Source: Candidatus Melainabacteria bacterium
Lineage (GTDB): Bacteria; Cyanobacteriota; Vampirovibrionia; Obscuribacterales; Obscuribacteraceae
Assembly: GCA_027451745.1 (NCBI GenBank)
Contig: DAIDIP010000021.1
Span: 1 to 54,643 of the forward strand
Length of the DNA stretch: 54,643 nucleotides
Direction of reading: 5' to 3'
Positions 49,313 to 52,331 of this stretch are shown here, in pieces. The position numbers and the translations under genes were made by a program. The notes under the pieces are model-generated. The model made no database searches. It saw nothing but the letters and a program-made list of their open reading frames with translations, and was not told the DNA's origin. Each line of letters opens with the position of its first letter. Within the stretch, counting starts at the first letter, position 1.

Positions 49313-50782
49313 ATGGTAGTCGAAATGACTGAGGGCACAATGTCAACCGAATTAGCAAAATCTCCGGCCAATAATAATGAACTAGATGTTCATCAAATTG
49401 GTACTGACTATAAATACGGTTTTAGTGATAAAGAAGACTATATTTTTAAATCCGGTCGTGGACTAACCAAAGAAATTGTTGAATACATTTCTCGTATCAA
49501 AAAAGAACCACAATGGATGCTCGACTTTCGTTTGAAAGCTCTAGACATTTTCTTGAAAAAGCCTATGCCTAATTGGGGCAATACTGAGTTGCTTAATGAC
49601 ATAGACTTTCAAAACATTTTTTATTACATTAGACCTTCAGAAAAACAAGGTACCAATTGGAATGATGTACCAGAAGGCATTAAACAAACATTTGATCGCT
49701 TAGGTATTCCAGAAGCCGAACGCAAATTTTTAGCTGGTGTTACTGCTCAATACGAATCAGAAGTTGTTTATCACTCTATTCGTGAAGACTTAACCAAGCA
49801 AGGTGTTATTTTCTTAGATATGGACTCTGGCTTGCGTGAGCATGAAGATATTGTTCGTGAGCATTTTGCCACAGTAATTCCAGCTGCGGACAATAAATTT
49901 TCTGCTTTAAACTCTGCTGTTTGGTCTGGCGGTAGTTTCATTTGGATTCCTGCCGGTGTAAAAGTAGAAATTCCATTGCAGGCATATTTCCGCATCAATG
50001 CTGAAAATATGGGTCAATTTGAACGCACTTTGATTATTGCTGAGCCTGGTAGCTTTGTTCACTATATTGAAGGCTGCACAGCCCCTGTTTATACGACAGA
50101 TTCTTTGCACTCAGCAGTGGTTGAATTAATTGCCAAAAAAGGAGCTCATATTCGCTATACCACTATTCAAAACTGGTCTAAAAATGTCTATAACCTGGTC
50201 ACCAAACGAGCAGTGGCTAATGAAGATGCCAAAGTAGAATGGATTGATGGCAATTTAGGCTCCAAATTGACCATGAAATATCCAGCCATTTATTTAATGG
50301 GACCAAGAGCTCACGGCGAAGTATTGTCTATTGCTTTTGCTGGTGATGATCAACACCAAGATGCCGGTGCCAAGATGGTGCATGCTGCACCAGACACTAC
50401 GTCAATAATTGTTTCTAAGTCAATTTCAAAAAATGGCGGACGCACATCTTATCGTGGTCTAGTTAAAGTTTATCCTGAAGCCAAAAATGTCAAATCAAAT
50501 GTACGTTGTGATGCTTTACTGCTAGATGAAAAATCACGTTCGGATACTTACCCAACAATGGAAATTGATGAAAAAGAAGCAACTATCGAGCATGAAGCCA
50601 CCGTTTCTAAAGTTGGTGAAGAGCAATTGTTCTATTTGATGAGCAGAGGACTTAGCCAAGACGAAGCCACCGCTATGATAGTTAACGGTTTCTTTGAACC
50701 ATTCACCAAAGAATTGCCTTTAGAATATGCTGTCGAGCTCAATCGCTTAATTCAGTTAGAGATGGAAGGCTCTGTAGGATAG
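49313..50782 (+). CDS. sufB: SufB, Fe-S cluster scaffold subunit
   Basis: 489 residues. Beta-helix scaffold that builds clusters with SufC and SufD. Motifs: [89 protein letters not shown] (cluster-related Cys), [17 protein letters not shown], and [17 protein letters not shown] at the C-terminus. Several Met codons lie near the N-terminus; ATG 49313 is the outermost and MSTELAKS nine codons later is possible. Followed by an unusual GC-rich 38-codon ORF before sufD. Confidence 0.96.
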
Positions 50783-50790
50783 CGTAGCTT

Positions 50791-50907
50791 ATGATGAAGG
50801 ATGACAAGAAATACAGCGAAGTGCAGGGCGCCCAAGTCGGCGGCCGGAATGAAGCGTGGATACGCGCGGAGAAGCTGAAGTGTGAAAGCGACGGAGCGCC
50901 TATATAA
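50791..50907 (+). CDS. GC-rich 38-codon ORF filling the sufB-sufD gap
   Basis: ATG 50791 to TAA 50905-50907. It starts eight bases after sufB, and its stop overlaps the sufD ATG (TAATG). The peptide starts MMKDDKKYSEVQGAQVGG; it is hydrophilic and has one Cys. By hand count 64 of 117 bases are G or C, against clearly AT-rich flanks. The sufD ribosome site GGAG (50893-50896) lies inside it. It may be a coupled microprotein, or an inserted repeat that happens to stay open. Ribosome site for the ORF itself is weak (GGAT). Confidence 0.5.
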   Translation: MMKDDKKYSEVQGAQVGGRNEAWIRAEKLKCESDGAPI

Positions 50908-52331
50908 TGTTTTACTTCGAAAATTATCTGGCAAAATTAAACAAAGAACCAAAATGGCTCCAAGACAAACGCAATTTGGCCTGGCAAGAATATTCCAAAT
51001 TGCCTATGCCCAATCCTAGTGAAGAAGGTTGGCGTGTATTAGATCTTGATATTATTAATCTCGATAATTTGCTCGATAATTTAAAAACGCTGCCTTGCTC
51101 AGGTACTAAAGCCCATGATTTAAGTATGCTCGACAAGCATCTTGCCGGCTATGAACAAATGCTTGATTCAATCAAAGAAAGAGCAGGCATCATCATAGAA
51201 TCTTCTGAAGGTGTCTGGTTTTATTTGGATGAAGAAACAGCAAAGAAGGGAGTAGTAATTTCTACTTTGGCTGACGCTGTACAAAATGACAAAACCAATG
51301 AACATATTCAAAGTTATTATTGTCGCCATTTGGATAATCTAGACAAGCCACTGTTGCGCGCTAATAAATTCGCTCTTTTAAATGATTCTATTTGTCAAAA
51401 TGGTGTTTTTGTATATATCCCAGAAAATGTTGAACTCAAAAAACCACTCATTTATTTAAATCTTCATAGCAAAGATACGCAATCGCTCACAATGTCTCGT
51501 CTTCTTTTAGTGGCAGACAAAAATGCCCACCTTTCTTTTGTCAGTGTACTTGCTACAGAAGGCAATATTGGCAAAGGTGTTATTCCCACAAGCAATAAAT
51601 TATCTTTGGCCAATTGCTTACTCGAAGTTTATTTAGAAGCCGGCGCTCATCTAAATTATGTTGAAGTACAAAACTTCTCTCAAGACACTTTTTCTATTGG
51701 ACACAGCTACTATACTCTTGAGCGTGATAGCAATCTAAATTCATTAGTTACAGCTTTTGGTGGCGAACAATTGAAGAGCGAAATGCAAGTGATTATGCAA
51801 GATCGTGGTGCCCAAAGCAGCCTCAATGGTGTGATTTTAGGTAATGAAACAGAACACTTTAATTTCAATACAATTGAAGATCATCTTGCTCCAGACACTA
51901 AATCTAACATAGATTTTCGAATTGCCTTGCAAGACGAAGCGCAGTCAATTTATCATGGCACAATCCAAGTTGCCAAAGCGGCCCAAAAAACAGAGGCTTT
52001 TCAAAGCAATAAAAATCTTCTTTTAGGTAAACATTCTCATGCCGATTCAATTCCAAAATTAGAAATTTTGGCTGATGACGTTAAATGTTCACACGGTGCA
52101 ACCGTTGGACCAGTTGATAAAAAACAAATCTTTTATTTGATGAGTCGTGGTTTGACCGAGCCTCAAGCAGAAGAATTGATTGTCAATGGATTTTTCCATC
52201 AATTATTGAACAATTGCCCAATAGCAGGCGTGAGCGACTGGCTAGACTTAATTGTGGCAGAAAAAATTGCTTCTTGCGAAGTAAAGCCTAAGCAAGCAAA
52301 AACAAACAGAGAACCAGCCTTAACCAGATAA
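50907..52331 (+). CDS. sufD: SufD, Fe-S scaffold subunit
   Basis: 474 residues. Beta-helix partner of SufB that helps iron entry. Motifs: NKEPKWLQDKRNLAWQEYSKLPMPNPSEEGWR (the usual N-terminal helix), [74 protein letters not shown]. His and Cys in the DVKCSHGA block are in place. ATG 50907 overlaps the preceding small ORF's stop, with GGAG ten bases before. Same order as in cyanobacterial suf operons, apart from that insert. Confidence 0.95.
   Translation: MFYFENYLAKLNKEPKWLQDKRNLAWQEYSKLPMPNPSEEGWRVLDLDIINLDNLLDNLKTLPCSGTKAHDLSMLDKHLAGYEQMLDSIKERAGIIIESSEGVWFYLDEETAKKGVVISTLADAVQNDKTNEHIQSYYCRHLDNLDKPLLRANKFALLNDSICQNGVFVYIPENVELKKPLIYLNLHSKDTQSLTMSRLLLVADKNAHLSFVSVLATEGNIGKGVIPTSNKLSLANCLLEVYLEAGAHLNYVEVQNFSQDTFSIGHSYYTLERDSNLNSLVTAFGGEQLKSEMQVIMQDRGAQSSLNGVILGNETEHFNFNTIEDHLAPDTKSNIDFRIALQDEAQSIYHGTIQVAKAAQKTEAFQSNKNLLLGKHSHADSIPKLEILADDVKCSHGATVGPVDKKQIFYLMSRGLTEPQAEELIVNGFFHQLLNNCPIAGVSDWLDLIVAEKIASCEVKPKQAKTNREPALTR

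Follow-up and report, generated by a model that had tools for sequence, protein, structure and literature searches.

The insert between sufB and sufD in this Candidatus Melainabacteria genome is, with a probability of about 0.85, a copy of a non-coding, structured, dispersed repeat that now supplies the ribosome-binding site of sufD and of which the GGAG class has been preferentially retained in that capacity in the genus. The window analyzed here comprises 54,643 nucleotides (assembly GCA_027451745.1, contig DAIDIP010000021.1, positions 1 to 54,643), and the genome it belongs to (G000) was compared mainly with a relative of the same genus (G001, genus g1) and a member of another genus in the same family (G008).

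Both flanking genes lie on the forward strand and matched their NCBIfam models above cut-off, sufB at 49313..50782 (TIGR01980, 727 bits) and sufD at 50907..52331 (TIGR01981, 248 bits); judged by SufB, the nearest named relatives are MAGs of Candidatus Obscuribacterales and Melainabacteria. Between them, the ORF listing contains a 38-codon frame (50791..50907, + strand) that begins 8 nt past the sufB stop codon (50780-50782) and whose TAA overlaps the sufD ATG to give TAATG. With 64 of its 117 bases G or C (55%), the ORF stands out from sufB (39% GC) and sufD (37% GC), and the earlier note on this DNA had described the frame, its base composition and its overlapping stop correctly. GC content alone is not rare, as 5355 of the 54527 segments of 117 bp on the contig are equally GC-rich. 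The same note had held that suf operons normally leave only a few bases at this junction, which does not apply to this clade: among relatives in which the end of sufB was found, the distance to the first in-frame sufD ATG ranged from about 14 to 117 nt.

The sequence filling the junction proved to be present at many other places, and it is this repetition, more than the base composition, that goes beyond chance. A covariance model (R1; 107 positions, built from 18 copies, match threshold E <= 0.01) aligned over its full length (positions 1-107) with 50802..50909 (+ strand), and the resulting 110.6 bits make this the best-scoring copy in its own genome, although it is also among the 18 sequences used for training. 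The search for further copies suggested in the earlier note was borne out by BLAST, where 128 bp matched 8 places in the own genome (E down to 1e-13) and gave matches in 7 of 40 relatives. Model searches, which scored no more than 150 candidates per genome and whose counts are therefore lower bounds, identified at least 65 copies in G000, 102 in G001, 103 in G008, 41 in G003 and 39 in G011, with fewer or none in other family members. At least 24 of 146 genomes of the class were positive, all of them in one Obscuribacterales-like family (14 of 65 genera). No relevant match was obtained when the window and ten copies were compared with the Rfam 15 covariance models, nor was the repeat matched in one exact-pattern scan of viral contigs or in a plasmid search, and the open-access literature yielded no account of repeats in Melainabacteria. 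As its copies are dispersed and mostly intergenic, lack coding capacity, share a base-paired structure and are missing from some orthologous sites, the repeat is a previously uncatalogued family of small interspersed bacterial repeats (MITE/BOX/ERIC-like class).

Each unit of ~107 nt (~110) consists of hairpin A and hairpin B in succession, followed by an AT-rich tail (TTATATAATG). Across the family, hairpin A is formed by GCGAAGCG...AGCGNAGCGT enclosing a variable stem, and hairpin B by GCGC-GGAG...CGGA-GCGC enclosing another. In the suf copy, the family model and covariation place hairpin A (GCGAAGTGCAGGGCGCC...GGCGGCC...GAAGCGT) at 50816..50857 (+ strand), with an apical stem less perfect than in relatives, and hairpin B at 50864..50899 (+ strand), with an outer stem of GCGC (50864-50867) and GCGC (50896-50899), an internal loop containing GGA(G) and a variable apical stem. 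Alignments of 60 (G000), 72 (G001) and 47 (G008) distinct copies were used to assess covariation, and 17, 15 and 16 of the 18 pairs, respectively, had changed on both sides. Standard pairs filled 93-98% of cells compared with about 75-80% in shuffled controls, and the signal was lost when pairing partners were slid. Fitting of these alignments to the model favors the structure, but so large an effect, together with the outcome for slid partners, is hard to explain otherwise. On the sense strand, G-U outnumbered A-C by 92:40, which suggests selection as RNA, although the model's own G-U preference may contribute to this count and the copies are non-independent. When folded as a single sequence, the suf copy had no stability excess over shuffled sequences, so that the structure would be missed from this copy alone; a G008-type copy was strongly structured (z -4.5).

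Two tail types were distinguished, GACGGAGCG (GGAG) and GAGGCAGCG (GGCAG), and the latter was not seen among 40 G008 loci examined. In G000 and G001, each tail type has its own 5' partner in hairpin B (CGCGGAGGAGC versus CGCGTTGAGC), so that the two appear to be structural subfamilies and not the product of single mutations. Some G001 arrays (L255:331-590, L254:9289-9495 and L271:7863-8238) carry an additional hairpin module (GGCGTATGAGTTACGCC, for example) that lies outside model R1, showing that the repeat is modular.

The repeat ends in ...GACGGAGCGCTTATATAATG, and since the sufD start codon falls within its last bases, the suf copy reads GGAG-N10-ATG. The earlier note had stated that the ORF carries the ribosome site of sufD, and this GGAG (50893..50896, + strand) is the candidate. 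The motif is located 10 nt ahead of the ATG, and the 16S rRNA of the organism ends in ...GGATCACCTCCTTT with the anti-Shine-Dalgarno CCTCC present; its position, its recurrence at other genes and the comparison between genomes make it likely that it functions as the sufD Shine-Dalgarno. GGAG-tailed copies faced the next gene in a ratio of 15:2 in G000 and 12:2 in G001 (pooled 27:4, p = 3e-5), and GGCAG-tailed copies in a ratio of 37:21. Gene starts throughout are predictions of a codon-usage script. Counted by array in G000, a same-strand gene start lay no more than 45 nt from the 3' end in 28 of 55 cases, and an antisense start was equally near the 5' end in only 5. A start was found 5-13 nt past the tail motif in 11 of 20 GGAG arrays versus 6 of 29 GGCAG arrays (p = 0.017). 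In genus g1, GGAG tails occupy the expected Shine-Dalgarno position at sufD, clpC, glmS, sucD, asnB, rplC, rpsE and rplR; the motif precedes the start by exactly 10 nt at sufD, clpC, sucD, asnB and further genes, and by 11 nt at glmS and rplC. Copies with a GGCAG tail often have a purine-rich site of native appearance between tail and start, with spacings of 17-26. The clearest pair is rpmD, which is preceded by AAAAGGAAATTTGTACTATG in G000 and by the repeat-derived GGAGCGTTTATTGAAATG in G001. At rplC and rpsE in G001, only the repeat tail has been retained before the start, which would be expected if the tail alone were required.

This use of the tail appears confined in scope. In G008, orientation toward the next gene was unbiased (17:20 for the GGAG class, 18:23 overall), which shows that donation of ribosome-binding sites is not a general property of the repeat. 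It looks like an exaptation, a way in which some copies were kept in genus g1, and not the purpose of the repeat. An asparagine-synthase-like gene (MCGI..) is preceded by a repeat with GGAG-N10-ATG in two genera (L229 in G000, L297 in G008), an arrangement that may go back to a common ancestor or may have arisen by convergence. In the modeled structure, GGAG is placed in an internal loop beside the 4-bp GCGC stem of hairpin B and could be partially masked.

Comparison of the two congeners, which share long colinear stretches at about 65-84% DNA identity, revealed many sites that are filled in one and short in the other, the following among them. The sucD and rplI leaders contain a copy in G000 and are plain in G001, and conversely the rpmD, rpsC, rplB and rplP leaders contain a copy in G001 and none in G000 (gene names other than sucD, rplI, rplC, rpsE and rplR were read from N-terminal sequence and gene order). 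At glmS, copies are present upstream in both genomes and differ in sequence and number. At the suf site, this genome is the only one of those tested to have a copy: no repeat was found at the sufB-sufD junction of 42 other suf loci (15 reached via SufB and 27 via SufD, with organisms partly overlapping), and the junction in G008 is 32 nt long and free of the repeat despite more than 100 copies elsewhere in that genome. Tandem arrays are common, with 81 model matches in G001 forming 41 arrays of up to 5 units. Together, the filled and empty orthologous sites and the common arrays indicate a rapid turnover of the repeat, with copies both gained and lost. In perfect or near-perfect G001 arrays of 4-5 units (G001:C16:21467-22026, G001:C9:29971-30418 and G001:C3:91591-92030), linkers are alike inside one array and unlike between arrays.

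Array expansion and contraction clearly contribute to this turnover, and from the sequences we infer that the repeat also transposes. Left and right flanks, compared for the target-site duplications that a MITE in the strict sense should have, reached a similarity of 13.4, only slightly above the permuted value of 12.8 +/- 0.38, and at single sites the flanks hint at a duplicated sequence resembling a ribosome-binding site. The repeat ends share only weak similarity (TATAGCG...CGCTTATA), and an unsystematic search found no related IS. Several copies lie a few to tens of bases from tRNA-like sequences in either orientation (L295, L301, L319 and L322 in G008; L197:1268-1382, L211 and L207:2302-2407 in G000), and the tRNA beside the L090 copy was confirmed by Rfam.

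The open frame across the suf copy can also be read as a translated leader, in which the product is useless and ribosomes leaving sufB re-initiate on the micro-ORF, open the hairpins and pass to sufD via TAATG. The frame begins 8 nt past the sufB stop and stays open until sufD starts, the clpC copy is likewise open across the repeat, and GGAG is enclosed by hairpin B, all of which would suit such coupling. However, other copies placed directly ahead of a gene in this way (e.g., sucD, rpsE) share no common open frame. More broadly, the frame of the suf ORF was stop-free in 10 of 47 tail-anchored copies in G000, where shuffling predicts a fraction of 0.19 (p = 0.7), and in G000 copies with both anchors found the core length between anchors was evenly spread over the three reading frames (16/14/14 modulo 3). 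The frame is not common to the repeat copies, and its openness is at chance level. A translated leader is quite unlikely on this evidence, and the suggestion in the earlier note of an in-frame mobile repeat adapted to keep coupling is upheld for the mobile repeat, which is multicopy, intergenic and present or absent at orthologous sites, and is not supported for reading frame and coupling as properties of the repeat.

Alternatively, the repeat could be a genuine cis-regulatory RNA, such as a thermometer-like or protein-binding leader, through which the suf, ribosomal-protein, clpC, glmS and sucD genes are controlled together; this would fit the strong covariation, the sense-strand excess of G-U, the Shine-Dalgarno within the structure and the housekeeping nature of the downstream genes in G000. 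Against this, many copies are antisense to, or distant from, the next gene; the lack of orientation bias in G008, the private nature of the suf site and the difference in gene sets between the two congeners, where sites occupied in one are empty in the other, also argue against a shared regulon, and we consider this reading decidedly improbable. A new Suf microprotein, produced from the ORF between SufB and SufD and offered as one possibility in the earlier note, is very improbable: a 38-codon frame exactly fills the junction, is preceded by a possible AGGAT ribosome site and overlaps the sufD start with its stop, but its peptide has no match in Pfam, no comparable insert or conserved peptide was found at the 42 other suf loci, and the same DNA recurs at tens of unrelated loci where the frame is not kept. 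The ORF is judged to be a by-product of a copy of the non-coding repeat and not a conserved gene.

Several known systems of small repeats resemble the one described here. REP/BIME elements, which are associated with RAYT, are short imperfect hairpins of high copy number with a GGAG-like motif at the foot. Mobilization of a REP-type element by a Y1 (RAYT) transposase would account for short hairpins, GGAG at the stem foot and many intergenic copies, but it is highly improbable here and this mover was rejected, as the Y1_Tnp domain (PF01797) had no match in G000, G001 or G008, the genomes richest in copies. Rickettsia palindromic elements (RPE) are hairpin repeats of ~100-150 nt inserted inside genes and translated in frame; the Melainabacteria repeat is likewise a hairpin repeat open to in-frame readthrough, but most of its copies are intergenic and no frame is preserved among them. 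In kind, it is comparable to BOX, ERIC and Correia elements, with membership assigned in none of them and with BOX compared by description. The pneumococcal BOX element, as far as it is described in PMC3049150, is a small modular intergenic repeat with RNA hairpins and a variable number of tandem modules that creates chance start codons and ORFs near genes, the latter without good Shine-Dalgarno candidates in that account. The present repeat is similarly small, intergenic, modular and hairpin-forming with variable tandem number. It differs from BOX in host phylum, apparently in sequence, as judged from the BOX description in PMC3049150, in that the whole two-hairpin unit of ~110 nt is repeated, and in that its 3' end recurrently places GGAG 10 nt from a start. 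A length of roughly 100-150 nt, palindromic sequence, intergenic position, co-transcription with neighbors and effects on expression are features of ERIC and Correia (NEMIS) elements according to the summary in PMC3049150 and general knowledge, and on the same basis their ends are better defined than the weakly similar ends of this repeat. Among small interspersed repeats, the repeated donation of putative ribosome-binding sites is an unusual trait.

A history consistent with a repeat-borne sufD ribosome-binding site can be outlined from the junction itself. The bases that separate the sufB stop from the modeled repeat (50783..50801, + strand; CGTAGCTTATGATGAAGGA) resemble the tail of an eroded adjoining copy (GGAGCGCTTAT...), and the old sufD Shine-Dalgarno (AAGGA) may be located here; a tail-like motif was found directly upstream of 19 of 64 copies in G000. 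A repeat copy would have inserted, or an array would have grown and shrunk, between this old site and the ATG, after which the repeat's GGAG, lying 10 nt ahead of the ATG, may have taken over. Inside operons, insertions would survive only where a usable start is left, and GGAG-tailed copies would thus be preferentially kept as ribosome-binding sites in the genus. A further-reaching interpretation, that the mobile structured RNA repeat is a portable translation-initiation module replacing native sites at ribosomal-protein, Fe-S, chaperone and central-metabolism genes and subjecting them to a shared, RNA-structure-dependent control of translation that is rewired in each species, is unlikely.

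Overall, the apparent micro-gene at the suf junction is a false positive of a type to be expected at every operon junction filled by this repeat, and the analysis describes an abundant structured repeat family with no entry in Rfam. Provided that Shine-Dalgarno donation is real, the two congeners offer natural before-and-after pairs (e.g., rpmD, sucD), and essential genes would have exchanged a native ribosome-binding site for a repeat-borne one, making the tolerance of operons to such replacement directly testable.
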